This document shows, piece after piece, positions 6,119-63,554 of a stretch of 64,000 nucleotides of DNA. Position numbers and translations under genes: made by a program. The notes under the pieces were generated by a model. That model had not been told where the DNA came from and made no database searches. It saw nothing but the letters and a program-made list of their open reading frames with translations. Source of the DNA: Prochilodus magdalenae (lineage: Eukaryota > Chordata > Actinopteri > Characiformes > Prochilodontidae); assembly GCA_024036415.1 (NCBI GenBank), contig JAMWET010001656.1, positions 258,501-322,500 of the forward strand. Reading direction: 5' to 3'. Numbering within the stretch: position 1 is the first letter of the stretch; each line of letters begins with the position of its first letter.

Positions 6119-6233
6119 GATCTGGGGAGCACTGGTGGGCCTCCACGAAACTGGAAGGGCATTGGCATTGCCATGGTTGTCATCCTGGTCGTCCTGTCAC
6201 TTGTCAGCCTTTCAATCGTTATCTTGACTCCTG
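6119..6233 (+). CDS. dpp10-like: dpp10-like membrane-anchor exon
   Basis: The exon follows a CTGTCAG acceptor and ends at CCTG|GTAAGA in phase 1. It encodes the family signature PPRNWKG, then a Leu/Val/Ile-rich helix of about 22 residues ending in Leu-Thr-Pro. In DPP6 and DPP10 this segment is the signal anchor and contacts the Kv4 voltage-sensor helices. The reading frame stays open for about 80 bases upstream, but there is no ATG and the acceptor is good, so the start must lie in an earlier exon. Confidence 0.93.
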
Positions 6234-9200
6234 GTAAGAGAAATATAAATGTTGGTAAGATTAAAGCGAAAACAAAAAAGAAAATAGGATTAGGAAGAGA
6301 AAACAGGATAAGGGTATGTGAGAATGTAATATTAGGGGGAAATAGGGCACGTAACCAAGGAAGGAAAAATAAGAGTCCGGAAACAGATGACTGTAAAAGG
6401 AACAGAGGAGGTGGATGTGGAAGAGGGATAACATTATGAAGGGGGTGGTTTGTGTAAGATATATAAGCAGAGAACAGTTGTGTAATCTATTCATTCACAC
6501 AAACAAATGCACAATGATACAGAAAATATGACAAGGACAAAAACAGGTCAGACAGCCGCACATTTGTCTTATTTAGCCAAACATCTAAAAGGCTTTTTTG
6601 CCCTGGAAATATTGTATGATGTTACAGTTATTTCCCTCTCTTTAGTGTGTTATATAGCTTTTTCTGACTTTCAGAATCAGACAGTGGTTCAACTAGAGCT
6701 GTTGTCATTGTAAGAATAGACAGTGATGCGGTGCAGTCTAATCAAAGCAGAGTGGGCAAGCTGATCAATTGGAGCAGAGTGGATTATGTCGGTTCAGACA
6801 TAGGATCAATACAGATGTACAGAAAAATATTGTGTCTTAGGTGAACTTAGCAAATAAATCTATTCTAGTGAACCCCAAAAATAAAATTATGAACATTGAA
6901 AACGTATAATAAGTTTCTTTTAAGATCAGCTGTATTCCTTTGTACAAATCCTGTAAATCATTTAGTATATAGAATATGCATTGTATATACAGTACACATT
7001 TGAACCAAACAGAAAAAGACACCACTTTTGTGCTGTTTTATAATGGATATTGTTTTACTGTGACTGCTGACTCTGTGTTCTCTTTCTTGTGTGGGAGATG
7101 AGTCTCACCTTCTTCTGCATTCCCGACTCACTGTTGAGGACTTGGAGAGTGAAGAGTTTAAAATTCATGACCCTCGTGCAGCCTGGCTCAATGGTAAAGG
7201 CTCAACAAAGTGTGCACACAGTGATTAACACCAGTCCTGCAGAGTGAATAATAGGAGATAATTTAGACCGGCTTGACTTCTTTAAATGGATTTACCTAGT
7301 ATTTTGCTGGGATGACCAAAAAAATTGTTTGTTTAAAAACTTAAAGAATTTCAGATACACATTGGCTATTAGAAGAGTTTTTCATTGCTTAATGAATGTT
7401 TTTTAAGCCTACCTTGTTTCTTTAAATAAATGGTTCATTGTTATTTAGTGTACATCCACAGGAGATGGAATTAAAGGTGAGAAACGGGCCCCGTTTAGTA
7501 AATAGCTGTTTTTCAGTGGTGCAGTTTCCAGGAGGAAATGGAATTGGCCCTACTGCAGCTAAAGGACTGCTTGTTGACCATTGTTGAATGTTGTGTCCTG
7601 CAGAGAATGAGTTGGTGCTGTGCACTCAGGAAGGTCATGTTCTTATCCACAACTTAAACACCAACCTGACCACCACCCTACTGGACAACAGCACCATGGT
7701 GAGTTACTCACGCATGTACACATTGGTACTATTGATCCAACACATTGATAAAACCTAGCCACCAGACTGACAAGCCTGGTCAAAATCAGGACACCACACA
7801 CATCAATAAATGTCTCAAATGGACATATCCTCTGCTGCTGTTGCTCAACCATTACTCCTGGACAACAGCACTCTAGTGAATTACACCCCCCTGGAGCAAG
7901 TGAAGGGACCCAGATGTACGACTGCATTGATTTGCCTATATTTCCAAGCAGTCACAGACAGACTGAACAGAGAAGTAGCCGGGTAGAAGCAGAAAACTGA
8001 ATTCAAAGACAATCACCCCCCCCCCCAAAAAAAGCAAGAAAAAAGTAGAGGGGGGGCATTTTAAAGCTCTGACAGTTTAATCTCTTATTCTTTCTCTCTT
8101 TGCTTCTGTCCTTGCGTTTGCTGTTTGCACCCCTAACACACAGCTTCAAAGAGACTGCTTTAGCAGGAGCATCACTTTGAACGCTACGGCTGGGTGACAC
8201 TGAGAGACTTATGTGGGTCGTTGCCTCTGAGCCCAGCACAAGCCGCTTCTCAAAACAGCAGAAATCTTTTCACTCAAACGCCGCAAAAATCTCACAATTT
8301 ACCACACGTGCCACACAGACTATTATTCCCTACAAACGGATTTTAATTTGGCTCCCTACCCGATTCTACAAAAATTACCCCATGCTCTGCAATGTTAGGA
8401 TGGTAAGGAGTAGGGCTGTACCCGGATTCGCCTTTTTTGCATAGCTAATTTTGAGTACTCAACCTCTCATTTTTTCTTCTTCAGGATCTGATGTCCATGA
8501 AGTTCCAGGTGTCAGCAGATAAAAGATTTATTCTGATGGCTTACAACATTCGTCCTGTAAGTAGTATACAGTATTTAACACAACATGTTGTATTTTGGCT
8601 TGTGTGCTATGACACTGTACTGCAGAACATCTCTGCACAAAGAATTAAATCGTATGATTGTTAAAAACAACAGTTTGTCTGCTGTAAGCTACAGTTACAA
8701 CACACTCCTAATCTGCTGTCATAATAGTAAAGGGGCTAAGGAGGAGCCAGCAGGAGATGCCTCTATACATGGAGTGCTGCAGTCTGTTCAGCATTAAAAC
8801 CTGCTGTTTGTAAATAGGAAGCGTGCAAGGAATTAAATATTCAGACTCAGCAATAGTGGAATAGAGGCAAGAAGGGGAGAGATGAGATGAGCAGAGAGTG
8901 AAATAGAAAAAAATAAAAAAAATACAGAGAAGAGAGAGAAAGAGAGAGAGAGAAGATTAATATTAAGAAAGAGAGGTAGGGCAAGAGAGAGGCAGACAGT
9001 GACTATTGAAAGTGGGCAGGAGAGAGGGAGAGAGTGTGGGGGCTGGGAGTGATGGTCTGAGGAGAATGGGGTGGTAAAGTTGGAGCGGTAATGAAATCAC
9101 TGTGGCAGTTCAGCTCTGAATCATAATGAGGAACGAGCCTGAGCCAAGGCTAGCAGGGGGCTTTAGTTAAAGGCGCATTAAACGAATCCAGAGACGACGA

Positions 9201-11666: not shown

Positions 11667-11739
<73 letters not shown>

Positions 11740-17700: not shown

Positions 17701-17753
17701 GGTACAGAAATTGGCCATTTGCAATAATGGGCAAAGAACTATGTGTGAGAATT

Positions 17754-17820
<67 letters not shown>

Positions 17821-20800
17821 GTGTGTAGGTGTGTGAAACTCAGGGATCCACAATGTACTTTGCCCCTTTTCAGGTATTCTCACAGTCCTTCACTGCCTCC
17901 TATGCTCTCTACACTGTGGCAACCGGGTATGTAGAGGCAGTGCACTGCATGCGCCGCACCGGGCATGTGCATTACTTAAAAGGCCTAAGAGTCAAGCTGG
18001 TCCTTCTCTGCCCGTGCTCATATTCAACTGTCAGGCATCCCTCTATAGAGTATAGACAGTGAATATTGTCCCACCTGGCAACTTTCCAGGTTAAAAAAAT
18101 ATTGGTCTTATCTCAAAATATTATGATGAATTATTATTAAACCTCCCTTGAGGATTCTTGTTGTTTTTTTATTTGTTTGTTTGTTTGTTTGTTTGAATGA
18201 AGGCCCTTCTTCCTGTACTTGTAAAGAGCGATTAAACATTAGAGAATGTTTTGAAGCTTGTTTGCTTGTCCTTTAGCAATTGACAAATCACTAAACATCA
18301 AATGAGGCTCCATCGCATGATATGACCCCTTAACTTGTATGGTTGGTATTTTTTTATTTTGTTTGGTATGGTCTTTGTATTTGCATCTTGCTATTTTGTA
18401 TGAGTTCTCCCAATCACTTTCTAAAATGACTTATGTTTTAAAGACTGCTTTTACTTATGTTTGGTTTTATGAGTCTCAAACACTGATGTGTTATGAATGA
18501 GGTTTGCTCAGTGTGTTCTGGTGTGTTGTAGGGAGGTGATGGACCTCACCCCAACAGGTGTAGATGGGTCTGTTCTGCAGTATGCGGCATGGGGCCCTCA
18601 GGGGAACCAGCTGGTGAGTCTGCTCTGAACTCCACAGACATTGTAGGTCAATTTCCTGCATTTCATGTTGATTTGTGGATTGTTTTTGGCATCCAGGGTG
18701 TTGAGTAGTTCAGTAATGAGAGCCATCTGTTAGCATTAGGGTTATTTACTGTCTCTCCGCTGTGCCAGGTGTATGTGTTTGAAAACGACATCTACTACCA
18801 GGCTGAAGTGTCCAGCCCAGCAATGCGCATCACGACTACGGAAAAAGAAGAACTGGTGGTGAATGGATTGACTGACTGGATCTATGAGGGTCAGAATTTG
18901 CTATTATACGGACATAGATATGGTGGGAATCCAACATGGTCTACCATTTGCAAAAAGCCAGTAAAATTCCATGTAAAAACTCAAAATCTAGTTTATTACA
19001 TATATTAATTTGCTATTTTATTAAAACAAACAGAACCTGCTTTTAGTTGTACAGTTTTCCCCAATAAACTTTTCTTTTCACCCTAACATTGTAACTACTT
19101 ACATCCACTGCCTGGCCAAAAAGATCACATACTCTAAAATTTCGTTGGACCACCTTAAGCTTTGATCACAGAACGCATTAAACTTTTCTTTTCACCCACT
19201 GTGCCTGGCCAAAAAGATCACATACTCTAAAATTCGTTGGACCATTTCTTTGATCACAGAACGCATTCTGTGCATCATGTCACAATATGTATTTCTGCGC
19301 AAAGTCTTCTCTCGCACATCCCAAATATTCTCAATGGAGTTCATGTCTGGACTCTGTGATGGCAAATCCATGAGTGAAAATCATGTCTCATGATCCCTGA
19401 ACAATTGAGCCTGATGAATCCTGGCATTGTCATCTTTTAATATCCTGTGCCTTCCGAGAAGAAACAATCCATTAATGAAATAACCAGGTTGTTCACTATG
19501 TTCAGGTAGTCAGCTGACCTCATTCTTTGGGGACATAACTTTGCTGAACCTAGACCTGACTAACTGCAGCAACACCAGATCATAACACTGCCCCAACACG
19601 CTTTTACGGTAGGCACTAGGCATGATGGGTGCATCACTTCAACCACCTCTCTTCTTATACCGATGCACCCATCACTCTGGAACAGGGTAAATCTGAACTT
19701 GTCTGAGCACATGATCTTCTTCCATTGCTTCAAAGTCCAATCTTTATGCTCCTTACCAAATTGAAGCCGTTGTTGCCGGTTAGCCTCACTGACAAGTGGT
19801 TTTCTTAAGGCTACAGCTATTTAGTCCCAATCCCTTGAGTTTCCTTTACATTGTGCGTGTGGGAATGCTCTTACCTTCACTATTAACCATACCCCTGAGT
19901 TCTGCTGTAGTTTTTCTATGATTTAATTTCACCAAATGTTTAAGTGATCGCTGATCACAATGGTTCAAGATTTTCTGACCACATTCCTTCCTCGAAGATG
20001 ATGTTTCCTCACTGTCCTTCCCCTTTTTAATAATGCGTTGGACAGTTCTTAACCCGATTTTAGTAGTTTCAGGAATCTCCTTAAATGTTTTCTTTGCTTG
20101 ATGCCTGCCAATAACTTGACCCTTCTGAAACAGATTAACATCTTTTCGGCAATCACATTTTACAACTGCATGTGTCTTTCAACATGGCTTGTGAACAAAT
20201 GAAAAGCTACTCACCGTATCAGTTAGGGTTAAATAAATTGTTGCCAGCTGAAACATAATCACTCATGTAGTAATTATCCAATGGGAGGCTCTTACATATT
20301 TGCTTAGTTAAATCCAGGTGGTGACATTCTTTGGCCAGGCAGTGTATATCATCATTACATTCACACATACAATATTTCATTACGTTCCAACAACGCCTTC
20401 TTGGTGTGTACATTTTATTTGACAATTTGTATAATTTATCTGAACTATACTCTGACCTGCCATTTGTGGTGGGATTTTTGAGTGCTATATAAGAGATAAT
20501 ACATAATAATAATAACACAGAGCATTTTTTTTTTACAATTTTCACTTCTTATTCTTCTTTAATTTTTATCACTCACAGTCAGCAAGCTGTGTGTATATCA
20601 TTTGAGGTAGGGCTTCCTGGTTTAACCCCACAATTATCACAAATGTGCACTTGGAATTAACATAAAACTTGCGTTTATAGATTTATACAGAACCACAGAT
20701 TTTTCCGGAATCTCCAGCTAATTATGTTGCTAAGTTATTGGGGTTGTAATTTATAATGTTGTTTGTCTCACTTCCATCTATTCTGCTATCACAGAGGAGA

Positions 20801-23800
20801 TTCTACAAAAGTATCCAGCCCACTGGTGGTCCAAAGACGGGGCACGCCTGGCATACCTTAAAATCAACAACTCTGCTACACCTGTAATGGAGATACCACA
20901 TTTCCTGGATGGAATCTATCCCTCAAATGTGCTTTATCCATATCCTAAGGTATGAGAAGAATTTTCACTGCATCCGTCTGTTCTGGACAGAAAAACATTA
21001 CAAATGATTATTTTATTGTTTTGCTATCCAAATACATTTTTTCTTTACAAATACATTTTAATTTAATTATTCCTGAATTACCTAATATACAGTGATTTCT
21101 TTCTTTTTTTTTTTGCATGTTTGTCACTCTTACATGTTTTAGATCATCAAACAAATTTAAACGTTAAAGACAACGTCAAAGACAACACAAGTAAACACAA
21201 AATGCAGTTTTTCAATATATATTTTTAAATTATTTTTAAGAGAGAAAGAAAACCCAAACCTACATGGCCCTAAATCCATGAATCATAACTTAACTGTGGT
21301 TTAACACACCACAAGTGTGTTCAATTTCTGTAGCCACACCCAGGCCTGATTAGTGGCACATCTGTTCTCAATCAAGAAATCACTTAAATAGGACCTGCCT
21401 GACAAAGCGAATTAGACCAAAAGATCCTCAAAAGCTAGACATCATGCCAAGATCCAAGGTAATTCAGTAACAAATGAGAAAAAAGTCATTAAGATCTATC
21501 AGTCTGGAAAAGGTTATAAAGCCATTTCTTAAGTTTTGGTACTCTAACAAACCATAGTGAGAGCCATTATCCACAAATGGTTAAAACGTGGTTAACCTTT
21601 CAAGGAGTGGCCGGCCGGCCAAAATTACCCTTAGAGCGCAGCGACAACTCATCCAAGAGGTCACAAAAGACCCCACAACAACATTCAAAGAACTGTAGGC
21701 CTCACTTGCCTCAGTTAAGGTAAGCGTTCATGACTCCACCATAAGAAAGAGACTGGGCAAAAATGGCCTGCATGGCAGAGTGCCAAGAGGAAAAACCAGT
21801 GCTGAGCAAAAAGAACATTAAGGCTCGTCTCAATTTTGCCAGAAAACATCTGGATGAACCCCAAGACCTTTGGGAAAATATTCTGTGGACTGACGAGTGA
21901 AAATGTTCTATTACATCTGCTGTAAAAGTAACACCGCATTTCAGAAAAAGAACATCACACCTACAGTAAAATATGGTGGTGGTAGTGTGATAGTCTGTGG
22001 CTGTTTTGCTGACTCAGGACCTGGAAGACTTGCTGTGATAAATGGAACCATGAATTCCACTGTCTTCCAAAAGATCCTGAAGGAGAATGTCCGTCCATCT
22101 GTTCATGACCTCAAGCTGAACCTGAATCCTGTTGAGATGCTGTGGCATAAACTTAAAACGATGGTTCATGCTTGAAAACCCTCCAGTGTGGCTGAATTAT
22201 AACAATTCTGCAAAGATGAGTGGGCCAAAATTCCTCCTCAGTGCTGTAAAAGACTAATTTTTTGCTGCTAAGTGTGACTCAACCAGTTATTAGGTTTAGG
22301 GGGCAAACACTTTTTCACACCACTGTAAGTTCAATCACGTGAAATCTTGAATCCCATTCCTAAACTAAATCAATGCATGCAACTCACTTACAAATGTGTG
22401 TGTTGTTTTGACAGTCTGGATCTAGTATCCCGTTGGTGAGCCTGTTTGTTGTTAATCTGTACGGACCAGCCCACACTTTGGAAATGATACCACCTGACTC
22501 ACAGAGCAGCAGGTATAGTCAGAGCCAGTGTTCATCATTAACGCCATTAGAGATGGGCATTACAGCCCATTATCAGCCATAACATTAAACCTAACACCTT
22601 GTATCTACGCTCATTGTCGTTTTATCATCTCCATTTACCATATACAGTAGGTGCACTTTACAGACCACATGTTGTATACTGTATTACCCTGTGTTTAGGG
22701 ACCACCACAGGACCACCACTAATCATAATTATTTGGGTGGTGGATAAAACCACAAATTGCACCTATATGGTAAGTGGAGTTGATAAAATAGACAACAAGG
22801 AGAACAAGGGGTGATGGCTGATGGGTGTATATCACAATATTTAAAAAAAAATCATAGTATGCATATTGTGAATATACATGTCATATTGTGAATATACATG
22901 TCTTTGTAAATGAAAAATGCATTTCTTTACTGTTGTGGAAGTACTGATGATATCATCATATGTATGCTCAGAAAAGCGTATTATAGCGCAATTTATTGTG
23001 ATAACAATTATGAATTCATATTCCCTAAAAACTATTTGCTGTATCTCCAGGACTGTTTAAAAAGTATAAGCAAACAAATTGTTGGACTGTTGCTGAATTA
23101 TTCATTCTAAACTTTTGTTATCTGTTATGCTTTCCTTTGTTTTTCTAGCTATCAGTCTCGTTTCATGTACTTCCGTCATTTTCAGTAATGTATTTCCATT
23201 GCTCTTTTGATTCTTTTGCACTTAATATATTCCATATGCCTTAACTGTCCCTTCTGTCTTGTTCTCTCTTGCTATCTCACCATGAAGAGAGAGCTACATT
23301 TCTATGGTAAGCTGGATCAGTAGCACTCGTCTGGCTGTGCGTTGGTTAAACCGTGTCCAGAATCAGTCAGTGCTGTGTGTGTGTGAAGCTACAACAGGAG
23401 CCTGCTCAGAGGTGAGGAGGTCAACAGTTTGCTCCACTGCAGATCACTGTGTATCTTTATCTGTGAAGTGTCCATCGATTTCAGCCTTATTCTGCATGCT
23501 GTAGGGCGTGCTTTGGGGGCAGGGAGGTGGCCATGGAGGGTTTATAGTGGATGCTCTAATGCCAGCTCAGCCAAATTTCACACTCGATAATTTTCTTTCT
23601 TCATGAAAGGTTTAGAGGAAAGCGCTCAGTCTTACTTCTAATATGCTTACTTTACTGTGTTGCCTGCTTCATCACTTGTTTTCCCAAGCTAAATATCCAT
23701 TGCCGTCATGAATTTAATAAGGTGTATGAGTAAGGTATACCCCACAGCACTGTAGTTTAACATCATTCAACTTAGAGTTTATTGCTCTCTGGAAGAAAAC

Positions 23801-26800
23801 ATGATGCAAGTACAAATACAGTGTCATGAAAATGTATTTCGCCTTCCTGATTTTCTCTATTACATTCTCTATTAGGCTTTCATATGTTTAAACAAAACAA
23901 TTCAGAACATTTCAAACACTGGATTTTAATTTTAATGTAAATTTTTAAATTATTATTATTGTAGAATTTGCCTTGTGACAAAGTAATCTGTCCTATCGTA
24001 TTCATTGTCATGGAGATCTCCACTGAATTCAGTACTAAATGGTTTGTGGTGCAGTATTGCATTTAGCTAATCAAGCACGAGTAGACTGGTCTTCGGTGTC
24101 GTTTTCTTACACACCAGATTACAGACGATTTAAGGGAAAATTTGTTTGTTATGTTTACATTGCTTGAGCAGAAATGCAAAATCTTACCTATAAGAATAAA
24201 AGTTTAATAAAAGCTTGTGGATGACTTGGGTGGTACTGGAAAAGTACTGCCTTGGGAACCGGACTTGCTACTATTGAAGAATGTATGTAGTCTGTACTGT
24301 AATAAAGACGCCGTAAGAAAAGAGTCTTTCAGTAGGTTGCAGTAGGTTGCAGGTTTTATAGCAAGGCAATGATTTAAAACAGAAAAAATCATTGAGAGAA
24401 AGGCTGATAAGAAACAAAATCAGTGTTTTGGATTTGTCTTGACCTAGTCTTAGTCAAAGTCTTGAATCTAAAATAGATCCTGTGGGAAGTCCATAAATGA
24501 GCTTTTCATACTGAGCAATAAATCTGAATTAAAGCTGTTCATTAAATAAGAATGCACTCAAATTCATCACAATAATGTGCTATGAGGCACATACTGTCTT
24601 ACATTACTGTTAATAGTAATGGATCCTAAAAGGATCTCCCTGACGACGAGATATGTTGCTATACTCTACAGAATGTTTCTCTGTTATATAATCTAAACCT
24701 TTGGCTCCTAAAACAGAAACATTTTTTATTTATAAGCTATAACAATGTTTTCTCTCTCAAACCCTCAGAAGCACAAAATGGCTGTGGACTTTTTGCAGAA
24801 TCAGCAGCAGGTAGTTTAAATTTCCCTCTATATCTCTTCTTCTCCCCATCTCCTTTTTTCCTCGCTTTTTCAGTGATTGGATGTACAGCATAATCATTTT
24901 TCAACCTCTATTGTATTATTTATGAATGCAGTGTGCGCCTGTGACAGTAATGAATAAAATCAAAGCTGTGTGCGATCTTATTGATTGGTTGCTGGAGTGT
25001 CTATTGACTGTCTGACAGGAGGAGCCGTTGTTCTCGGCAGATGGCTCTCACTTTTACCTCACACTGCCTGCCAAGCAAGGAGCCCGTGGAGAGTTCCGCC
25101 ACATTGCCAGCCTTCCTGCTCAGGTCTGTGGGACCAGTCATTTCATGCTGTTCACCTGAGCACAATTACTCACAGATACTTTAGTAGTTATGGAATTAAA
25201 TTTGGCACCTCCACTGGGCTGCGTACAATGTGATACACATGGATATTTGTGGGTACATTGTGCCAGAATTTAGTACAGGTAAAGCACACACTGCTGACAC
25301 CTATAAAAAGCATGGTAGTCATGTACTGTTACAGGGGAAGTTTTTAAACAGTGTGTCCACTTACTCTCCATCTCTTAGATACACTGACTTTGACTCACCT
25401 TGTAGATGTAAAGCTGTTCTTAGTCCAGCAGTGATACTAAGTTGTGTAAAACACTTAAAAGATGCTGTGCAGCACACACACACACACACTTACAAATCCT
25501 TACCATGATGGTGTCCCTACTGTCCTGAGAATGATCCTTAGTGCAAACAATACCTGCTTTTGGGGGATGAACAGGGTAAAAGGGTTTATAGTAAACTGTC
25601 CAGAGAAACACGTGAATTACAATCTGTAATTGAACACATGTGGTAAGCGGATCTAATAAAATGGGTATGATGATAGATGATAGAGGGTAGATGTTGCTAA
25701 TAAAGCCAGTAAGTGTGTGTAGTGTATGTAAAACAAAATTATTAATTAATTGGCCCCTGAGTAGGCCATTCTGGAAGGCCCATTTTAAATAGCCTGTAGC
25801 CTATATAGAGTTCACCAGGGCTTTACTTAAAATGTAAAGCATTTTCGTGCACAAATCAAACACTCCTGTTGAGATACTCTAAAACCTTCAAATTCTGTAC
25901 ATCTCCTTATTTTAAAGAATGACACACATTTATATATTACAGTAAACTGTATAGCATAGTTGATTGAAAGAGTACTTTTTCATTACTAGCTGTTTGCCAC
26001 ACAAATAGACCAGACTCTTTTTCAGTGTTGGTCACCTTTCTAAAACAAAGCTTTTCACTGGGGGATCCATGGTATGTAATATCATGTGAGGAGAACTCTG
26101 TTTTGCTGTACCACTACGCAGTAGGGTATTTTATTTATCTGTTGTGTCCATCTTTATCTCTGTGTAGCCATTTTGAAGTTCCGCCTGCTTTTAATGTGCT
26201 TGTTTTCACTCCCCATATCCTTTCTTTGTCCTGCAAACTGTGCTCATACTCTCTCTCTGTCTCTCCATCTCTCTCTGTTTCCTTTTCTTTCCTTTCCCCT
26301 AGCCTGCTTTTCCCTCTGCTTCTCCTCGCTTTCTTACTTCAGGGAACTGGGATGTAACTGCACTTTGTGCTCTGGATGAGAAGAATGGTAAAATGTACGC
26401 AAGGGGTGTCTTACTTACATGTGTAATATCGGGCTTACCATTCTGAACACTGAGGCACTGCAGATGACATTTAATTAAAGCTCAGCTGAAGATTTCAATT
26501 GTGTATGGACTGTAATGAATTCGTTGCTTCTTTTCCCTTGTTCTGTATTAACAGTCATGTAAAGTAATGCATAACAGCTGTTTCCGACATTAGCATATTA
26601 AATGGCCACTTATTAGGATTTCACAGTTTGCAACAAGAAGCAGTTTATATGTAGATCCAGCAGTTTATATGTAAATCTATTTACTTTTAACCAAGAAATC
26701 TCACTTTAGAGAGTATTGTGGCACCACTGCCGAGTAAGACGAGTAAGGTCTGGCTTTTTTATGCTTCAGACTAGTGGAGATTCAGTGGACCAGTATTCGA

Positions 26801-29096
26801 GATTTGCGGATCCAGTTTTTTAATTTGTTCAGATATTTTGATGCTGGAGTCAAAACAATAGAAACCGTCACTGTCTAGTTATTTACAGACTGTACTGTAT
26901 ATAACATATACACATTCTGTCAACATACTGCAATGTTTAAATATATAAGGCTAAGCAATTTGAATACTAAGGTAGAAAACATTCTCAGTACTTTTCCTCA
27001 ATGGAACTGATTTTATCACTAAAAACCTTATCATGAAAGGCTTCGAGATCTATGTGTATCTTTTTCTCTGCAGTTATTTTCTCAGCACAGAGGAATCAAG
27101 ACATAGCAGACACTTATACAGGTAAGTGTCTGATTCAGGTTCAGATTTTCTAATGACCGTAATTAAACACTTAATCATTCTTATTCACTGCCTGGGTTTT
27201 CTAAGACTGGCCCCTAACACAGCATTATTTGCGTCTAAATTCCACAGAGCATACACCTATCAATTTTATGATCTTGTAAATTTTGATAGTCACTTTCCAC
27301 CTTTAAGGTAGTTAATGTTTATTTACACACCCACTAGAACAGCCCCCACTCTTACTATGTGTCATCAATACCTTGACTTACAATTAGTCAAGTGCCCGGT
27401 GTGAGTAGGGATGTAGAATGGCAGTTTAGGGCGGCGTTCGTTAGCAGCAGATGAAGTTTTCACTCTGCTAAGCTCCAGGCAAGCTAAACTAATACATTTA
27501 GAAGTGATGGGAGAGATTAAGGGAGACTGGTGGAAGCTTGTAAAGGAGCAGTGTGACTGGGATGTAAAGAGCGTTCACTTACCTATGATTAATTCCATAA
27601 GCCTCTCAGTCCCTTAGCCCAAAACATAAGTTTGCATTGATTTTTTTTATTGCAACACTCACAGGTAAGGAACATTGGTGTCCACTTTTAGTAAAGGTAA
27701 GGTGTTACCAGATCAATGCAAATGTATTACACACCTGAGGACCCAATAAAAAACTTTATTAAAATACTTGTTTTAGCCACAGATTTACATTGATCACACA
27801 TAACCAGGAGTTGGGAAGGTTGGAATACATTCACATTTATCAAAATGACTAAATAGGTGGAGCAATACATATCAATCATTCAAAGATTAACAGAATGTGG
27901 TTGCTTTTTTGTATCCTGATTATGTAACACTGTTACATGTGTTCTATTACTACCAAACCATGGGCATTACTAAGCTCATGAAGGTCAGAAAGAGTTTATT
28001 ATCATGAATATCTAATGAGCAAAAATTTACAGGATGCCAGCACTAAGAAACCTTTTATATTAGGGCTTGCAATACTCATTGTCATTGTAACAGACAGGTG
28101 TCATTACATCACGTTTTAGAAAGAGAGCAAACAGAAAGTAAGAGTTAATAAACTAGAGTCAGTAAGTCCAGTATTGGCTGCAGGTGTGTGTGATAATAAC
28201 TGATCGGACCCAAGGTGAGACTTGCACTGGTGCGAGACAGTATAAAATGGTAGTGCCTTGACTCCAGGCCTCTGTATTGCATTTCTAGAGAACTACAGCA
28301 TTGAAAACTGTTCCATTAGGAAGGGTATGAAGAAGTATGGCATTTATTGTACTTTTGTACATAATTATGTCCATTCCAGTATCTTATTAATACACTTTCT
28401 GAAGACTGCACCAAAGTGATATTGCTAAATAAAAAACAGTGGCATACTTACATGCTGTTTCAATCATACTGGGGAAGAATATTAATATTGCAACACCAGC
28501 AGCTGCCTGTTCCACAAAGACATGACCCATATTCTCACATGCACACGTCTTAACTAGCGCATGTGTAGGTTTGATTAATTAAAGACTAATTCGTTAGTAT
28601 GCTCTTAAGCAAAGCCACAGATCTAGGTGTGAGACAGATCATAAATCCCTGCCTTTTTTATGGATGCTACCAGAGTATCCTTTATGTCACGTTGTATGTT
28701 TAAGGTTGTAGTAACAACCAGGTTCAGGCTCCTACAGCCAGTTCTGCACAAGGATGATCTGACTAGAGGTTCGGAAGTAGCTGAAATGGCAGGTGTATGG
28801 AAGGGTATGGTCATACAGGTCTACCAGCAGGACAGTTTTAGCTTACAGGGTGGGTAATATTAAGGTAAACACAAAGTGATGTTTGCCTTCCATGTTACTT
28901 CCTTTTAAAAAAAAAAGCAGTCCTAGACAGCATGTAACACAAAAAAACCTTCACTGGACTTCACTGGTGTGTACCTGTGTGGACCACATAACTTTTGTCT
29001 TTTGAAAGCCAACATTTGTGGAAAATTATACCACAGCTTTTTGCAACCCTGAGATGTGATTGGCTAAAAGATGTTCTGTAAGTATGAGTACAAGTG

Positions 29097-29195
<99 letters not shown>

Positions 29196-32100
29196 GTAAT
29201 ACACTCAAGGCTATAGCATGAGATATTAACAGTGGTGTAATACACTATATCAAAGAAACTCCAAAGGCTATTTCCACTACAAGTTTTTATGATAGACAAT
29301 TGTTACATAACGAACAGTGGTTAGTGGAATAAAACAGGTATGGTGAAAATATAAAACAAATAGCGTAGAATGTTTTTAACCAGTTACACTGGCTAGTCAG
29401 AACTAACTGTGTGTAATTATTTCATGTGTGACTATCTTGCAGTGCTGAACTTGGAGGAGTGTTTCATCGTCACTGTCTAACGTGCAAGCTGTTTGAGCGC
29501 TGTAGCTTCTTCAAAGCTGACTTCAGTCCCAACCAGACACACTTCACACTCTACTGTTTAGGTAGGGAATCACAAACGCACCTATACCCACCTATATATA
29601 CCACTTATGGTGGGCAATGTTGTAGTCAGTGTTTACACAGGCAGACAGAAAGTGCTAAGAATGAGCAAACCTTCAAATAATACCTGACCCTTGGTCACCC
29701 TTTGGTGGTCTCTTTCCATCACGGGGTTCAACCACTGTGAATAAAGTTTACTGATTACTTATTAAAGGTTATGATGACAACACGGTATGAGGCATGAAGG
29801 CCGAAGGACAAAATAGTAATGAAGAGTCTTAGTTCGTTAGCAGAAATAAGGCTGGGTTCCTGACATTACTAAACCTAACAAATGCAACCCTTAGTTATAC
29901 CATCCAAATCACTGAACACAGGTGTTCCAGTCACTTCCATGGCCACAAGTGTATGAAACAAACCACCTGCATGTGGCCTTCAAATTATCTTAAGAACAGT
30001 AGAGAACATAGAGAACTTCATGGAATGGGTTTTCATGTCTGAGCAGTTGCATCCAAGCATCACCAAGCGCAGAGCAAAGTGTCGAATGCAGCGGTGTAAA
30101 GCCTGCTGTCACTGGACTCTAGAGCAGTGGACACACGTTCACTGGAGTGATGAATCACACTTCTCCGTCTGGCAAACCAATTGACAGGTCTGGGTTTGGC
30201 GGTTGCCAGGAGAAAGGTACTTGTCTGAAATTCATATGTGTGAAGACAGACAAGCGAATACTACAGAAAATCTGCAGCTGTTCTGTGTTCTAGTATTAAG
30301 ACCCATGATACTCTATAAATGTATCGTGGTAATTAGCAATAGCAATAACAATTTGCGTTACTTTCTACTCCTAGAGACAAAACAGCTCACTTTCTACTTT
30401 GCAGGCCCAGGGGTTCCAAAGGTGACTATTCACAGTACCGCTGACCCTTCTCGTGAGTAAGGTTTGCCTTCTTCCTGAGTTTATATATTTGACCGTTAAT
30501 TGTGCCGCCAGTGGGCATATCTGCACAAAAAACACAGAAAAAAATGGAAAAAGTGATGCAAGATTTACAGATTAAACAGAAGCTGGTGTAAAATTATTGC
30601 AGGAGAAACTGGAAAATTGGTAACAGAATGGCTCATTGAAACCCATTAATTAAATTTCCAGAAAAGGCAAGGCACAAAGACATTATCAGGAGACTTGACA
30701 GTGGGCAGTTCTACAGTTTGGATAGACTCAGACTGGTATTTTCAAAGAATATGAAACTTTCAACACTATTGCTCACCACAAGCTATAAAGTAAATGAAAA
30801 GTTTTCATTAAGCTAAATGCCTCTACTCAGAGAAATGTGTGTTTGTTCATTAAATACTTTTGACACATTGATTTAGTGTCAATGGGGTTCACATGTCAAA
30901 TCAACAGGACACACTGTGGTTGAAGACAACAGTCTCCTTGCATCATCCCTTGGGGTCAAGCGTCTTCCTGAGATGCTCTTCAGGACACTGTCCTCTGACA
31001 ACTATGGTACAGTGGTAATCCAGTAGATTTTTGTCTGCAAAACTGTTTAAAAAATACAATTCTGTTAACTGACTCCTCACAGCAGCCAGACTGCTCCATT
31101 TGTTCAGCATCAGCTATTTAACAGGTTCCATAGCAGGGTGTGTGCGTTTGTCTGTGTATGTGCTAACAGTGCTTTGCTACACATACATGTGCACACATTT
31201 TGTAACTGCTCTATTATAATTAAACACGCTGTGTGTATGTTAGTGAAAAAAAGATGGAAAGAAACCCCACCAATCTACCTGCTAGTAGTTTGTATATTGA
31301 TTGAGCTTGTGTACAGACTACAGACACTTCTGCAGTACTTTATAGGCAGAGCAGTGCTAAGCTCTGTTTAAACTGATTTTTGTACATAATTCTAGACTTG
31401 GATCTGAAGCTCTCCCTGCCTCCAGGGTATGAGGGAAACCTGCATCCCCTCCTCATCATGGTGTACGTCTGCACTGTACCTTATCAAGCATAAATCACTG
31501 TTATTACAGCTGTTCTACACATCACTGCATAACCTCCCATGATTTTCAATGAATGATAATTACTTAAGTATTGGCTTAGATAAATAAAAATTATTAAGGG
31601 TAATCAGGAAATTGTGACCCCATTTGAAATATGCTAATCATTATATTAGTTTAATACTATTTATAATTTTCTCTTCTTTTTTTCCTAATTCCATATGTAC
31701 AGACATCCTAATTTTTCTCCCTTTCTGTCTCTCTCATAGTGATGGCTGCCCAGGCAGTCAGACAGTGACAGAGGAGTTTGCCCTGGGTTGGCCTCAGGTT
31801 CTCTCCAGTCTGCATGGAGTAGCTCTTGCCTGGGTGGATGGCAGGATTAGAGCCTCGCGAAGCCAGAAGACCAGCACAGTGGACCCCCGCAAACTGGGGT
31901 CACTTCGTATCAAAGACCTGATGGGGGTAGTAGAGTGAGTATTCTCAGTTATTGTTCAGTTCAGAGTACTGTTTATTTATAATGACGTAATAGAAAACAG
32001 TAGCAATCAGTTATTTTAGTAATTGAGTATTCTATATAAAATATATATAAATATATACTGCCTTCTTGAATGGCTTTGTGGAATTTGCAGGAGACAAAAA

Positions 32101-35100
32101 TCATATTCCTATTCCGATCCTATTGATCTAATGATTTACATTAAATACTAATGAACCCTGATGTTGTGCTACTGTGAAAGATTAGTTCAGTTTTACAAGA
32201 GACAGCCTTTTTTTCCCAGTTTGAAATTTTCCCAAACTTTGGATAGTATCTGTTGTTTTCTCTTGTGTGCCACTTCTGTTTGGCCCTCTCTAATGTCTCT
32301 CTCTTTTTCATTTTGCAAACCACACTGTCAACTCATGTTTTCTTCATATTACAAGCTCACAATATAACTGGATTGTGCGACAGTAATAATTAGCGTGGTG
32401 GAAAACAGCAAGCTGTATGTAGTTATTTAGATTACACAAACCTTTGATGCAATGAATGTACATTAGTTGTTTTGTTGAGTTACAGATAAATCAAGGAACA
32501 TCTACAGATAACACATTTTAATAATAAACAAATAAGGTGTTATTCTTAATGTAGCCTTGATATTTCTTCCATGTGTAAATCCCACTCACAGCATGTACAT
32601 TGACATACCAAAAGTCATGGGATAGCACTATAGAATTTATTATGAATTGGCGTTATCTCTGGGGTTGTTTGTGAGGTTTTATTTTGTATTAGCTCTTTCA
32701 GGAGGACCTCCGATATAGGGACTTACGTCCTGACCTGAAAAGGTTTCTTAAGAGGTTCAGCTGATTTGCTTAATGATTAAACTTGTTATTTAGTCATTGC
32801 TTACTGTAGTGCTCCATGTTTTTTTAATTATGTGATGGCTTTCTTTACTGTAACTGACACCTCTATTCAATGTTTTAAGGCACTTAAGATATTTTAGATG
32901 TTATTAATACTATCAGTTTGGAACTTTTCAGGTGGCTGACCCAATTGCCTTATATTGATGGTCGAAGAATTGCTCTTTATGGAAAGGTACTTCATGTTTT
33001 TCATTTGGAATTCTGTTTTGTTCACCTATAAAGACCATGCAAAAACACACAAGATACTGATCTAGAAAAACCTTCTCCTTTATCATTGTATTCTGAAGCA
33101 GTCTTAGACTGATCTCATATAATTGCTGATCTGGTTTTATAACTGTCTGCATGTTTAACACAGGCTTCCACTGTGTTACTGTTTTGTGCTCTGATGATTG
33201 TGTCCTCACAGGGTTTTGGAGGATATTTAATTTTGAAGATTCTTACAGCAACTGAGCAGATGTTCAGATGTTCAGCCATCATGGCCCCTATAACTGAATT
33301 CAAACTCTACAGTAAGTTTCTAATCCACAACTACACTGTGACCATACTATAGATTCAAATCTAATCAACACCTTTATGCAGATGCTGCCTTCTCGGAGAG
33401 ATACCTGGGACTCCCTGGAAAGGAAGAGCATGCCTACATGGTTAGAACTTTTATAAATTGAACATTTGTACAACAAATTTCCAGTAAAGTTGGAACATTT
33501 TTGTAAAATATAATTACAACACAAATCTGCTATTTTTTCATCTTTATGAACCATTAACTGACAAAAGTACAAAAACTTTTCCACTGTTTTCTTTGGATGT
33601 CACAGTTCGGATCTTATTCAGAAAACGTATTGAAAATGTATTGGAGGTGGCTGAATCAGTCACTTACACTACCTATTTTGCACTGCCTGTGCATCAGGGA
33701 CATTTGTATGTTGAATAGCACCCACACACCACATAGGGGCACCTTGTAGTTGTACAATTACAGACTGTCCATCTGTTTCTCTGCTTACTTTATCCCCCAT
33801 CACCTTTTTTTCAATGGTCAGTACTCTCACAGAGAAATTATTATATAGGTGGTGGATCATTCTCAGCACTGCAGTAACAGTGACATGGTGGTGGTGTGGT
33901 ACTGTGTGTTGTGTTGGAGTGGAACAGAGACCAGCACGCCAGTAGTGGACAGTGAGGGGACACAGTGTTTAGGAACTCTGCTGTGTTTGATCCACTCACA
34001 CCAGCACAACACACGCTAACACATCACAGTGTGTCAGTGTCAGGCAATGGCTGCAAGAAAATACACACTCGCCTACTCCAAGTTTAAAACAACTGGAACA
34101 GTGGCAAACAAGCCTGGACGAGGACTCAAGTTTATTTAGCCTCCACACACAATGAGGAGGATGGTAAGAGAAGCAAAAGGTTCTCCAAAGCTCACTGTTA
34201 GAGAATTGCATCAAAGAGTAGCATCTTGGGGTCACAAAGTCTTCATAACAACCACCAGGCGCTATCTACATGCCATTAAGCATGAACGTAAACGTCTGGA
34301 GTTCACTAAGCGGTACTAGGACTGGGGCTCTAAGTGGGTCTGGCGTAACACAAAAGTTAGTATGCGGAAATGTACCTCATGCCCACTGTAATGTATGGGG
34401 GAGGATCTGTGATGCTCTTCCAAAGCCCCAGAAATCTTGTTAGGGTGCATGGCATTATGATATCTTTGTAATACCAGGACATTTTAAATCTGGTGGCCTG
34501 TGCCCAAAAGCTGAAGATAATGACCCTAAACATGTGGCCAAATCTACACAAAATTAGTTTACCAGACAATAATGCTGTGGAGTGAGCTGAAGATGAGAGT
34601 GCATAGGAAAGGACCCAGGACGATTTAGAGAGATTGTGCGAAGAGGAATGGTCAAATATCCCTCTCGCTGTATTCTCCGATTCTGCCAATAATTGTGGTG
34701 AAATTTCATGTAAAATAATTTTTTCTTAATGTGGGATTTTTTCACACTGAATAAGGTTTGGATTTTGTGCATTGTTGTCCTATATTATTTAAAAAAAATA
34801 GTATTTATTAGAAGCATAAGAACACATCATAACAAGGGGTGCCAATAATTGTGGAGGGCGCTATATGTATGAAAGTACAGGACAAGTTGTAATGATTTAG
34901 TAGTGGACACTGTATTTTATTTCTCAATGAGTGACAAATCTGTGGCAATGGCAGTAAAAGTGTAAACTGGAAATATTTAACTGAGGGACATTTGCTTGTT
35001 ATAACAGCCTGTATCTTGTAAAATAAAATGACTGTTAGCTTAAAGATGTATAGGTTTGTTATTCATGCATTCCTGTGCAGGCTATGGGCCTTTAAGTCAC

Positions 35101-36413
35101 GTAGTAGTGCAGTGCTTTTGTCTAAAATCAGCTTGAAACATGTTGCTGTTTGTAACCTGTCATTCAGTAGAGCTGAACAATCCAGCTCAGGGAGGCTTAG
35201 GAGTGGAGCCTGACTGGAGGATGGTAAAAGGCAGCAGTGAGGATGTTTGGACAATGTGTGGTGAGAACATCTGGATGGTGAAAGGCTGTGATAACTCTCT
35301 TGTGGAGCAGCTTGGTGGCCTGGCGCTATTGACTGCTTCCCTCCGGCAATGCTTCGAGCAAGGTTTTTCTTTGCTCTAGCGTCTCAGGGAAGAATACCTG
35401 GGCAAATGCAGTGAGACGTGATGGTGGTACTTCTGAGGTCAGAGAAAGTGAAAACCTCTTCAGCATTGGAGTACCAGATTGAGCAGTGGAACGGTTGGTA
35501 AGCTGGTGTTACGAAGAGAGGAAACACTGCACTGGGAGGCACTGCAAGCCTAGGTCAGCAGGTAAATAGATGCCAGTCTAAGATGTTTGGTTAAGTTGGT
35601 GATCCATGGATTGAGTGCAGCATGGACTAGAAGAACCCAGCACTGAGGAGCTAGTACCCCACTTAATTTATGGGAACTGTGTATGAGAATTAGCTTGAGT
35701 TGGTATGTCACCAGGAATGGTTTACCTTTGTGTGGGGCTGTGTAGTGACCCCATACTGGCTGGAGACGCTTGTGCTAGTTTATACGTAAACGTATGTTTT
35801 ATGTGTATTACTGTGTTGCCATCAGTGAGTCCTGTATGGTTGTTGAGAACCTTACCTTCTATTTTTTTCTGTATTTTTCTGTGGCTTTTAGAATTATAAA
35901 TAGAAACATTTTTGGCCAAGTTTGTTTTGTTGTTTGGTGATATGTAATGTATATGTGAACTGGCCTCCAGTCTCGAACACAGACAAGCTCATATATTATA
36001 CTAAATTTATTCTATGTGTTGTTGTTATTTTTTTACAGACAGCCTCTTTACTAGAAGATGTCCACAAGTTAAAGGATGAAAACTTTCTCCTGTTGCATGG
36101 CACTGCAGATGGTACATTTTTGTAAGTAAAAAAGAATATAAAGCAGTTCTACACTTCTAGATGATTAATGATCGTGTACGTCTGTGTGTTTGCAGCCCGT
36201 GTACATTTCCAACACACTGCCGAGCTGCTTAGTCGGCTGGTGAAGGTGGAGGCCAACTACACCCTGCAGCTGTACCCAGATGAGGGCCACACTCTAAAAG
36301 AACAACGCAGCATCCAACACCTTCACCGCACTCTCCTTCACTACCTTCAAAACTGCCTCAAACACGATCCCATGTTGGTTGCAGAAGAGCAGGAGGAGGA
36401 GGAAGAGGACTGA
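6119..36413 (+). CDS. dpp10-like: Inactive dipeptidyl-peptidase-like protein of the DPP6/DPP10 group (5' exon missing)
   Basis: Type II membrane protein of the S9B fold; family members bind Kv4 channels and speed A-type currents without peptidase activity. Exons: 6119-6233, 7098-7193, 7604-7698, 8485-8556, 17874-17926, 18532-18613, 18769-18889, 20795-20949, 22415-22512, 23288-23411, 24769-24810, 25019-25123, 26303-26394, 27074-27121, 29443-29561, 30405-30452, 30908-31006, 31396-31462, 31740-31934, 32932-32986, 33212-33311, 33382-33440, 36039-36111, 36196-36413. All phases join, giving 776 residues to the stop. Order: short cytoplasmic end, membrane helix (about 15-36), beta-propeller, alpha/beta-hydrolase domain. 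Position 628 has Gly where active enzymes have Ser (GKGFGGY); Asp704 (HGTAD) and His736 (PDEGH) remain. NLT, NST, NNS, NQS and NYT are glycosylation sequons. Most segments look nearer DPP10 than DPP6, including the Gly (DPP6 has Asp). The protein ends in an acidic tail. Exon 1 with the ATG was not found. Confidence 0.92.
7848..7886 (+). repeat. Decayed partial copy of the tail and donor site of dpp exon 3 (7604-7698)
   Basis: About 150 bases after the exon end at 7698, the intron repeats its last part: CTGGACAACAGCAC is identical in both, and flanking bases are similar on both sides, including the donor region (GTGAGTTAC in the exon; AGTGAATTAC in the copy). The copy has lost the GT donor. 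It looks like a short local duplication that is now decaying. Confidence 0.55.
8866..9050. repeat. Purine-rich GA/GGGA low-complexity stretch
   Basis: Imperfect GAGA and GGGAGA runs on the plus strand, for example GAGAGAGAAAGAGAGAG. This is simple sequence in an intron, without coding support. Confidence 0.6.
9470..9620. repeat. Short GGTTCTTT/AAGAACC-type interspersed repeat
   Basis: Contains GAAGAACCTTTCAGTGAATG and later AAAGAACCTTTTTAAAG, a pattern I know from a common teleost non-autonomous repeat with inverted GGTTCTTT ends. A weaker relative (GTGGTTCCATCAAAT, then GAAGAACCTTC) lies at about 5660-5750. Boundaries are approximate. Confidence 0.4.
10341..11145 (-). mobile_element. Tc1/mariner-like element, internally deleted
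   Basis: Starts TACAGTGTTGCTTGAAAG and ends with a degraded inverted match (GGGTTACAAACTTTAAAG). These are the terminal repeats of a familiar vertebrate Tc1 family whose ends read as GTGTTGCTTGAAAGTTTG. Internal fragments (GATCCACCTTCTGTTTAGG, ACACCTGATTGTCATCC) agree with that family read on the minus strand. It is about 0.8 kb, roughly half of full length, with no open transposase frame. Confidence 0.65.
11670..11735. repeat. (GA)n microsatellite
   Basis: About 33 perfect GA units on the plus strand. The long open frames across it on the minus strand encode only Ser-Leu repeats and are artefacts of the tract. Confidence 0.95.
12900..13140 (+). mobile_element. tRNA-derived SINE-like repeat
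   Basis: Contains a degraded version of a widespread teleost SINE body: GCCTTTGAGCAATGCACCTG, then a CACCCCAGGTG block, GCTGCCCCTTAGTGTG and TCACTGCTTGGATAAG. The order and spacing match the family I know (GAGCAAGGCACTTAACCCC ... TGTGTTCACTGC ... GGGTTAAATGC). Ends are uncertain and the promoter boxes are decayed. Confidence 0.5.
15165..16225. mobile_element. Fold-back DNA repeat (CCATAACATTAAA family) split by a LINE
   Basis: The left arm, 15165-15356, starts near GACTAGCCATAACATTAAAC and runs through TTACAGACTAATCCATCAG and CCCCATCACC. The right part, 15865 to about 16225, continues with GATCATTCTCAGCACTGC, GTGAGTGGGTCAGACACAGC and TGGACTGAGAATAGTCCAC. A copy at 33690-34042 has the two parts contiguous, which shows that the 0.5 kb between them is an insertion. 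The full family is a long inverted-repeat element; this copy is partial. Confidence 0.65.
15357..15864 (+). mobile_element. L2-type LINE 3' end, truncated, nested insertion
   Basis: Encodes the C-terminal tail of a LINE reverse transcriptase (frame 15364-15555: SRLFSVLAPRWWNELPLGVR, then a Ser-rich segment). It ends with the L2-type 3' UTR GTAAGTCGCTCTGGATAAGA, GCGTCTGCTAAATG and a TGTAAA microsatellite tail. It is 5'-truncated, as is usual. TATTA flanks it on both sides (15352-15356 and 15865-15869), a likely short target-site duplication. Confidence 0.8.
16617..16660. repeat. (CTTT)n microsatellite
   Basis: About seven TTCT/CTTT units followed by imperfect T-rich sequence. Confidence 0.85.
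17757..17826. repeat. (TG)n microsatellite just before a dpp exon
   Basis: About 33 TG units with two single-base interruptions (a GC in place of GT near 17815, then AGG). It ends 48 bases upstream of the exon that starts at 17874. TG/CA tracts near splice acceptors can affect splicing in other genes; here that is only a possibility. Confidence 0.95.
19068..19290. repeat. Tandem duplication across a Tc1 terminal repeat
   Basis: AAACTTTTCTTTTCACCC occurs at 19068 and again at 19180. Each is followed by CTGGCCAAAAAGATCACA, ACTCTAAAAT, CGTTGGACCA and TTTGATCACAGAACGCATT. The repeat unit is about 112 bases and includes flanking DNA plus the transposon end, so the duplication happened after the transposon inserted. 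The second copy has small deletions. Confidence 0.75.
19106..20346 (-). mobile_element. Tc1/mariner element, transposase on the minus strand, inactive
   Basis: The left end CACTGCCTGGCCAAAAAG pairs with the right end CTTTGGCCAGGCAGTG (to 20344), each followed by TA. Reading the minus strand, a region around 19330-19370 encodes PSQSPDMNSIENIW, the DDE-domain signature of Tc1 transposases. Frames are broken by many stops. It lies in the dpp intron 18890-20794. Confidence 0.8.
21088..22327 (+). mobile_element. Tc1/mariner element with broken transposase
   Basis: Bounded by TACAGTG at 21088 and CACTGTA at 22321-22327. A transposase-like reading begins at ATG 21444 (MPRSK) and runs with frameshifts to about 22175. 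Recognisable parts are IYQSGKGYKAIS, RARLNFARKHLDDPQD-like sequence, VKYGGGS, GRLAVINGTMNS, NVRPSV and LNPVEMLWHKLK. The piece that should hold the second catalytic Asp (QDNDPKH region) is missing between NVRPSV and LNPVEMLW, so the element is both frameshifted and internally deleted. It fills most of the dpp intron 20950-22414. Confidence 0.88.
22570..22830. mobile_element. Fold-back DNA repeat (CCATAACATTAAA family), partial
   Basis: Begins TCAGCCATAACATTAAACC, continues with a CTTTACAGACCACATG block and GACCACCACAGGACCACCAC, and ends with TATGGTAAGTGGAGTTGAT, AAAATAGACA. These are the two arms of the same family seen at 15165 and 33690, with most of the centre deleted. Confidence 0.6.
22862..22901. 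repeat. 20-base direct tandem repeat
   Basis: CATATTGTGAATATACATGT occurs twice in a row without mismatch. Confidence 0.85.
25500..25725. mobile_element. Fold-back DNA repeat arm, partial
   Basis: CTGAGAATGATCCTTAGTGC, ATACCTGCTTTTGGGGGATG, AACAGGGTAAAAGG, CAGAGAAACACG and TGTGGTAAGCGGATCTAATA follow the right arm of the same inverted-repeat family in order. Confidence 0.5.
29097..29196. repeat. Compound (AT)n(AC)n microsatellite
   Basis: About 37 AT units followed directly by about 11 AC units, in the dpp intron 27122-29442. Open frames on the minus strand across it encode Tyr-Ile repeats and are not genes. Confidence 0.95.
29880..30235 (+). mobile_element. Tc1-like transposase fragment
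   Basis: A frame near 30080-30230 reads RMQRCKACRHWTLEQW, then HWSDESHFSVW, a stop, and VWVWRLPGERYLSE. This is the catalytic-core block of a Tc1 transposase, with SDES holding an Asp of the DDE triad. No terminal repeats were found, the reading is interrupted by a stop, and upstream sequence is diverged. It differs from the Tc1 copies at 21088 and 34043, so it belongs to another subfamily. Confidence 0.75.
31740..31934 (+). CDS. dpp10-like: dpp10-like exon with diverged GRGSG loop
   Basis: This 195-base exon opens the alpha/beta-hydrolase domain (DGCPGSQ, like the DGTPGSQ of DPP6) and ends at GA|GTGAGT. Where DPP4, DPP6 and DPP10 share DGRGSG followed by Phe or Tyr and Gln, this protein has DGR then I-R-A-S-R-S (residues 580-585), with no length change relative to DPP10. 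The distal part (RKLGS, KDL) again follows the family. The exon frame is intact, so this is divergence rather than a frameshift, unless the assembly carries local errors. Confidence 0.85.
33212..33311 (+). CDS. dpp10-like: dpp10-like exon with Ser-to-Gly nucleophile site
   Basis: The previous exon (32932-32986) ends ...ALYGK in phase 0 and this one starts GFGGY. Together they form GKGFGGY, the nucleophile elbow, which in active DPP4 carries the catalytic Ser. Gly at this place is what DPP10 has; DPP6 has Asp. The exon continues with MAPITEFKLY, a standard family segment, and ends TAC A|GTAAGT in phase 1. Loss of peptidase activity is inferred with high confidence from the missing nucleophile. 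Confidence 0.93.
33690..34042. mobile_element. Fold-back DNA repeat, left arm and part of the centre
   Basis: CTGTTTCTCTGCTTACTTTA, CCCCCATCACC, TTTTCAATGGTCAGTACTC and GGATCATTCTCAGCACTGC run without the LINE interruption seen at 15357. The next block contains the inverted partner, ending GATCCACTCACACCAGCAC. The copy stops abruptly at a junction with a Tc1 fragment. Confidence 0.65.
34043..34866 (+). mobile_element. Tc1-like element, 5'-truncated and broken
   Basis: Contains AAGCCTGGACGAGGACTCAA, CACAATGAGGAGGATGGTAA and ATAATGACCCTAAACATGTG (the Asp-Pro-Lys-His block of Tc1 transposases). The right terminal repeat reads GGGGTGCCAATAATTGTGGA, GGGCGCTATATG. No matching left end is present; it abuts the fold-back repeat directly. 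It is in the dpp intron 33441-36038. Confidence 0.75.
34867..36038. other. Remainder of dpp intron 33441-36038
   Basis: The part after the Tc1 fragment has a short open frame at 35140-35379 with no family resemblance and no splice support. I see nothing else specific. Confidence 0.5.
36196..36413 (+). CDS. dpp10-like: dpp10-like terminal coding exon
   Basis: The exon follows TTTGCAG and carries VHFQHTAELL, an NYT sequon, YPDEGH (the catalytic-His position) and a C-terminal Glu-rich tail ending in Asp, then TGA at 36411-36413. The acidic tail and the HFQH block are shared by DPP6 and DPP10. A first AATAAA lies at 36605-36610, about 190 bases past the stop; others follow at about 37625 and at 38304-38309, so the 3' UTR may have several ends. 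Confidence 0.93.
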
Positions 36414-63457: not shown

Positions 63458-63554
63458 TGAGTGCCCTTTCAGTCAAATGTTAACGGATAAACGACATTGT
63501 TTTAATCAAGTTGTGAATGATACAGGGAGCTTAAGTCATATTGGTTAAGTCATC

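Follow-up and report, generated by a model that had tools for sequence, protein, structure and literature searches.

A third DPP6/DPP10-type pseudo-peptidase gene beside citrate synthase in Prochilodus magdalenae, probably an early vertebrate paralog lost in amniotes

The window, the whole stretch of DNA analysed here, comprises 64,000 nucleotides of one Prochilodus magdalenae contig (C1644). Between its positions 6119 and 36413, on the plus strand, 24 exons join into 2331 nt, or 776 codons and a stop, with zero internal stops, as judged from splice sites and reading frame. For these 24 core exons, AG is present at all 24 acceptors and GT at all 23 internal donors, and the phases are consistent. 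A pseudogene reading was rejected, as neither a stop nor a frameshift was encountered across the 24 exons. The features of the window are as follows.

6119..6233, plus strand: core exon 1 of 24 (gene exon 2), transmembrane helix, RNWKGIGIAMVVILVVLSLVSLSIVILTP; AG acceptor and GT donor
7098..8556, plus strand: core exons 2-4 (7098-7193, 7604-7698, 8485-8556), stalk and start of the propeller
17874..25123, plus strand: core exons 5-12, bulk of the beta-propeller; dimer loop in exon 20795-20949; sequons NNS and NQS
26303..31462, plus strand: core exons 13-18, end of the propeller and start of the hydrolase domain
31740..31934, plus strand: core exon 19, where DGRIRASRS replaces the DGRGSG(F/Y)QG loop of DPP4, DPP6 and DPP10
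32932..33311, plus strand: core exons 20-21 (32932-32986, 33212-33311), with the intron splitting GK / GFGG (DPP4: GW / SYGG); nucleophile changed to Gly
33382..36111, plus strand: core exons 22-23 (33382-33440, 36039-36111), up to the conserved Asp (HGTAD)
36196..36413, plus strand: core exon 24, C-terminal dimer loop, NYT sequon, conserved His (PDEGH) and stop
40881..50618, plus strand: cs (citrate synthase), from exon translations; PF00285 in two exons
54440..57540, minus strand: COQ10-type gene (the coq10a of the preliminary description); PF03364 in exon 55983-56180

Possible traces of mobile elements were also noticed in the window. A CX2CX4HX4C zinc-knuckle motif lies at 639-680 in an apparent retroelement remnant, and the intronic stretches 19100-20300 and 21300-22300 resemble, as judged by eye, remnants of Tc1-type DNA transposons.

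The preliminary description had counted a full set of 24 in-frame exons; all 24 do join in frame, but the first coding exon lies outside the window. This exon (ATG...CTG/gtaaag, coding MIATTQQNMTTDL) is found at C1644:245556-245594, so that 12,945 bases separate it from the start of the window. A gap of 19 kb separates it from the next exon, and the whole gene spans 49 kb. The full protein has 789 aa, equal to that of Colossoma (P0002), and its N-terminus is conserved, 110 of the 131 proteins of the clade described below starting with MIAT or MIAS. When aligned with the protein deposited for Prochilodus magdalenae (P0001), the joined window protein gave 0 mismatches and 2 gaps. The first 15 residues of P0001 are read from window positions 5964-6008, which looks like a gene-model error since the conserved first exon sits 12.9 kb before the window.

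We compared the window protein with solved structures. Its best relatives were human DPP10 (829 bits), DPP6 (776 bits) and DPP4 with its orthologs (388-413 bits, FAP included), and its identity is 49% with human DPP10, 44% with human DPP6 and 30% with human DPP4. Both the propeller and the alpha/beta-hydrolase domains are present (PF00930 and PF00326 in P0001; PDB match 4wjl). In a structural model of P0002 (mean pLDDT 71.5, pTM 0.73), a single N-terminal transmembrane helix occupies residues 25-49, the short cytoplasmic segment coming from the upstream exon 1; the best PDB match of this model was human DPP10, with a TM score of 0.91 by target length and 0.83 by query length. The nucleophile motif of the window reads GKGFGG, and the catalytic serine is replaced in 132/132 clade rows, that is 131 proteins and the window (A 94, G 36, E 2). 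The catalytic Asp is kept in 132/132 of these rows and the His in 130/132, the other 2 being gaps. The loop around DPP4 Tyr547 is one residue shorter in the alignment, so that Tyr547 is without a counterpart to compare. By sequence and model, the predicted product crosses the membrane once and combines a propeller with a hydrolase domain that is dead.

The surroundings of the gene were then considered. The cs gene starts 4.47 kb past the stop codon, in agreement with the distance of about 4.5 kb given previously, and the COQ10-type gene is indeed on the same contig, its paralog letter being that of the preliminary description only. The linkage turned out to be wider than was seen at first, as the 100 kb before the window contain a CSRNP gene, a POU6-type gene, dazap2 and racgap1. 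The POU6-type gene matched POU6F1 with 202 bits and its next match with 75, and POU6F2 was not among the matches. For racgap1, 6/6 PDB matches were RACGAP1, and the call rests on a minus-strand RhoGAP exon (C1644:239345-239701) that lies 5.9 kb ahead of exon 1; an ORF taken for the start of racgap1 (C1644:242671-243045) was without Pfam match. In human, RACGAP1, DAZAP2, POU6F1, CSRNP2, CS and COQ10A lie at 12q13 with HOXC, while DPP10 lies on 2q, as do NR4A2 and GPD2. Taking these human positions as background, the neighbours on both sides fit 12q13, the HOXC block. Human DPP6 has been placed at 7q36.2 (PMC9409431), and in a BAC table from sole, a gene labelled 'dpp10' appears together with nr4a2 and gpd2 (PMC7915175). 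Two candidate markers were discarded: a BIN/amphiphysin-type exon, as a 12q13 marker, scored 37 bits with BIN1 against 31 with BIN2 over 34 residues and was without Pfam match, and INSIG matches were on C7584 and C4843, contigs without a dpp match to the clownfish DPP10 query. Beyond the COQ10-type gene, a C2H2 zinc-finger ORF (PF00096) occupies window positions 59221-60636, and two short exons at 63069-63460 (MSKAHPPELKK and FMDKKLS) resemble snrpg.

When the same genome was searched with clownfish DPP10, matches outside the window contig were a convergent gene pair on C6857 and further exons on C6258, C5342, C3883, C3730 and C3261. The plus-strand gene of C6857 is the true dpp10, grouping with clownfish and grouper DPP10 at an SH-aLRT of 100, and two partial proteins, of 202 residues (C6258) and 160 residues (C5342), join mammal DPP6 with a support of 100. 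A gene that is simply the fish dpp10, moved beside cs and fast-evolving, would account for the NCBI name of its relatives, inactive dipeptidyl peptidase 10, and for DPP10 being the best solved relative (829 vs 776 bits for DPP6). We give this explanation almost no credence, because a true dpp10 and dpp6-type exons are present on other contigs of this genome, and gar, Huso, clownfish and newt each have both genes. The idea, raised at the outset, that this genome might lack any other dpp10 is thus false. The two genes also differ in structure, the content of core exon 24 forming one exon in the third-paralog gene and two exons in dpp10 of the same genome. DPP6/DPP10-like (DPLP) genes have been described as consisting of a variable first exon and 25 common exons (PMC3973911), as against the 24 core exons and one first exon found here. 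In Erpetoichthys P0243, nine extra residues stand at the junction where the last intron is absent from the third-paralog gene, as if, judging from the protein, that intron were still present.

The minus strand of C6857 carries a second dpp10-like gene (G000:C6857:423731-457755, loci L034-L037), convergent with the true dpp10. Its exons are ordered over most of the protein, it is very divergent (end branch 0.88), and it is best matched by DPP10 (651/796 positions with a Polypterus query).

In order to place the gene, relatives were gathered with three queries (the window protein, human DPP10 and gar P0109), and the best 120 proteins were taken for each. In a tree of 42 rows, which left out the bear DPP10, the third-paralog clade obtained a support of 100/100, and in a FastTree tree of 256 rows, P0001-P0120 and P0241-P0251 (131/131) fell in one clade with the window at a support of 100. 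Within this clade, the 42-row tree grouped lungfish with salamanders (96/94) and the ray-fins together (100/100), the latter comprising sturgeon and paddlefish (100/100), gar and bowfin (85/49) and teleosts (100/100). Such branching of the ray-fins is as would be expected for a gene older than the bony vertebrates. The DPP10 of sharks, coelacanth, tetrapods and ray-fins grouped without the third paralog, with a support of 81 in the first tree, 74/84 in the 42-row tree, 98 without DPP4 rows, 89 with the C6857 gene and 93 with the dpp6 pieces of this genome. Two Oncorhynchus rows were left out of the last three trees, and the long minus-strand gene of C6857 was also left out of the tree with dpp6 pieces; the first 130 residues of P0239 were removed in the row-set trees, and a 40-residue piece from C3883 entered no tree. 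DPP10 was not one group in the 256-row tree, where seven rows (P0222, P0224, P0232, P0234, P0237, P0239 and P0240) lay outside the shark-human clade (support 30), none of them inside the third-paralog clade. The third-paralog protein was outside the DPP6 clade, represented by two mammals and two partial fish genes, and membership in the vertebrate DPP10 clade was not found across the trees and constrained tests. The protein thus belongs to neither the teleost dpp10 nor the teleost dpp6 clade, which had been the other doubt raised at the outset. These trees suggest that the split predates the parting of the shark and bony lines, with moderate support (74/84) in the 42-row tree. The gene may be closer to DPP10, closer to DPP6 or outside both, as the constrained alternatives lost no more than 0.44 and 0.73 log units (p 0.374 and 0.265, respectively); the earlier statement that the gene is nearer DPP10 was therefore not borne out.

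A younger origin can be considered, in which DPP10 was duplicated inside the bony vertebrates or the ray-fins, after the shark split, and the copy seems older through fast evolution. No shark copy was among the matches listed, and in 15/15 pairs of lineages the clade distance exceeds the DPP10 distance of the same pair, by a factor of 1.1-2.1 (the bowfin and bichir entries each pair two close species); a fast rate can push a clade rootward. Moreover, in a tree without outgroup the clade joins DPP10 between the ray-fins and the rest, the root position not being decided by such a tree. However, AU tests rejected topologies in which the clade was constrained to group with bony DPP10 (p 0.029) or with the DPP10 of ray-fins (p 0.033), DPP10 grouped without the third paralog at 98 when DPP4 was omitted, and the 12q13-type linkage is separate. 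A ray-finned duplicate in particular was rejected, both by the AU test on ray-fin DPP10 and by the presence of lungfish and salamander copies in the clade. We therefore regard a late duplication as quite improbable, and retain an early split. Apart from this question, P0244 and P0251 (Oncorhynchus gorbuscha and O. mykiss) share a long branch of 0.48, apart from Coregonus P0031, pointing to an extra fast copy.

The spread of the clade was examined with the gar P0109 query, for which 7987 candidates with a minimum length of about 753 aa were scored, the last row listed having 942 bits. Of the best 120 rows, 119 belong to the third-paralog clade and the remaining one is a marsupial DPP10 (944 bits). 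Among the matches listed, the clade members from outside the ray-fins were two salamander proteins, from Ambystoma (P0248) and Pleurodeles (P0250), and one from the lungfish Protopterus (P0249). These best 120 matches (at least 942 bits, about 753 aa or more) included no clade member from sharks, coelacanth, frogs, caecilians or amniotes (mammals among them), whereas DPP10s of such animals do occur in the same protein collection, as seen with the human DPP10 query. Both genes were among the matches listed for Lepisosteus oculatus, Huso huso, Amphiprion ocellaris and Pleurodeles waltl. Retention in fish, as first proposed, holds for the ray-fins and extends beyond that proposal to lungfish and two salamanders. 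With the window protein as query, most named rows among the best 120 carry the NCBI name inactive dipeptidyl peptidase 10, and so do both clownfish genes, which indicates that in fish the label 'dpp10' is shared by two genes. One clade member, P0112 of Amphilophus citrinellus, is named Dipeptidyl-peptidase 6b in UniRef, so that the symbol dpp6b is also in use for the third paralog.

Two motifs were followed across these proteins. The DGRGSGxQG loop replaced in core exon 19 is exact in 4/131 clade proteins (two salamanders, Huso and Polyodon), the lungfish being one change off, and in 93/120 DPP10 proteins, 22 of the 120 being gapped there. In the P0002 model, the stretch 591-610 had pLDDT values of 44 and 36 and was without helix, whereas the matching stretch of a gar DPP10 control model, made with the same 61 proteins, formed a helix at 608-616 and had values of 54 and 64. 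This contrast is a hint, since pLDDT is low in both models and 42/61 input proteins were from the third-paralog clade. The loop of the vestigial active site has probably eroded further in gars, bowfins and teleosts. The second motif, DG-PGSQ, had been taken for a DPP6-like mark, which is wrong: it occurs in 7/120 DPP10 proteins (coelacanth, Polypterus, gar, bowfin, and three sharks and rays) and in 71/131 clade proteins, and its presence in both makes it look ancestral.

We next asked what is conserved of the features by which DPP6 and DPP10 act on Kv4 channels. The transmembrane helix of DPP6 lies on S1-S2 of Kv4.2, and DPP6 speeds gating (PMC8566240). When N257 of DPP10 is changed, surface trafficking and dimers are lost; N342 is also important for dimer formation, and the dimer is anchored by Y282 and H768 (PMC4350108). 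The sequons N257, N342 and N748 of DPP10 are kept in 131/132, 129/132 and 131/132 clade rows, and the anchors Y282 and H768 in 130/132 and 129/132. By comparison of sequences, the Kv4-facing helix of the third paralog is diverged: over 28 residues, gar third paralog and gar DPP10 agree at 20/28, as against 25/28 for gar DPP10 and rabbit DPP6, and gar and zebrafish agree at 21/28 within the clade, as against 28/28 for gar and clownfish within DPP10. By analogy, the third paralog is likely a dimeric auxiliary subunit of Kv4. As described for DPP6 and DPP10, it would form glycosylated dimers, its helix and short cytoplasmic N-terminus would lie beside Kv4 S1-S2, and it would raise the surface expression of Kv4 and speed the A-type current. 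It might instead be a true third paralog that has left Kv4 and serves a different partner as a membrane pseudo-peptidase, as the diverged helix, the faster evolution, the clade's own conserved N-terminus and the eroded loop could suggest; yet dimer anchors, sequons and fold are kept. In addition, fly DPP10 modulates Kv4 while still being an active peptidase, DPP6 being found, by the same account, only in vertebrates (PMC4873792), so that the Kv4 role should predate the split of the paralogs. A change of partner therefore seems to us rather unlikely, and a Kv4 role is preferred.

Taken together, the trees, the separate dpp10 and the 12q13-type linkage support the earlier proposal of a separate paralog from the two rounds of vertebrate genome duplication (2R), kept in fish and lost in mammals. 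We consider with good confidence that the DPP6/DPP10 (DPLP) family has in this gene an ancient third member, which split off before the parting of sharks and bony vertebrates, probably as the 2R copy of the HOXC block, and which encodes a putative Kv4 subunit lost in the amniote line. As no shark copy was among the matches listed, the dating to 2R relies on linkage and on the shape of the trees. The gene would have arisen as the HOXC-block copy in the early vertebrate genome duplications; ray-finned fishes, lungfish and salamanders would have retained it, and the amniote line, at least, would have lost it. The third paralog is thus probably a 2R ohnolog lost in amniotes. More tentatively, and with somewhat less than even confidence, early jawed vertebrates may have had three Kv4-tuning pseudo-peptidases, the third of which, marked by a conserved N-terminus of its own, an altered helix and a hydrolase loop in erosion, would give neurons of fish, lungfish and salamanders a kind of A-type current control lost in amniotes. 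A review of 2014 counts two DPLP genes, derived from an early vertebrate duplication (PMC3973911), and no report of a third DPP6/DPP10 paralog was found in the literature searched, which included few subscription journals. The gene is of an ordinary kind, yet it is a third branch filed under DPP10 in databases. The two genes mixed under fish 'dpp10' labels would have parted before the diversification of jawed vertebrates. Studies of 'dpp10' in fish, zebrafish included, may therefore deal with the other of the two, and the loss of a probable Kv4 subunit toward amniotes becomes testable.

Compared with known members of the family, the third paralog shares with DPP10 (DPPY), a Kv4 auxiliary subunit, the same fold, the dimer anchors and the three sequons, and the window has a Gly nucleophile as in human DPP10; DPP10 differs in forming a separate clade, in having the last intron and a longer N-terminus, and in its transmembrane helix. 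DPP6 (DPPX), also a Kv4 auxiliary subunit, has in common with it the fold, the topology, the Asp, the His and the dimer anchors, whereas its nucleophile position is Asp, unlike the Gly of the window, and the DPP6 group is separate at a support of 100. With DPP4 and FAP, which are active peptidases, it shares the two-domain fold and the positions of the catalytic Asp and His, but the GWSYGG of DPP4 corresponds to GKGFGG in the window.
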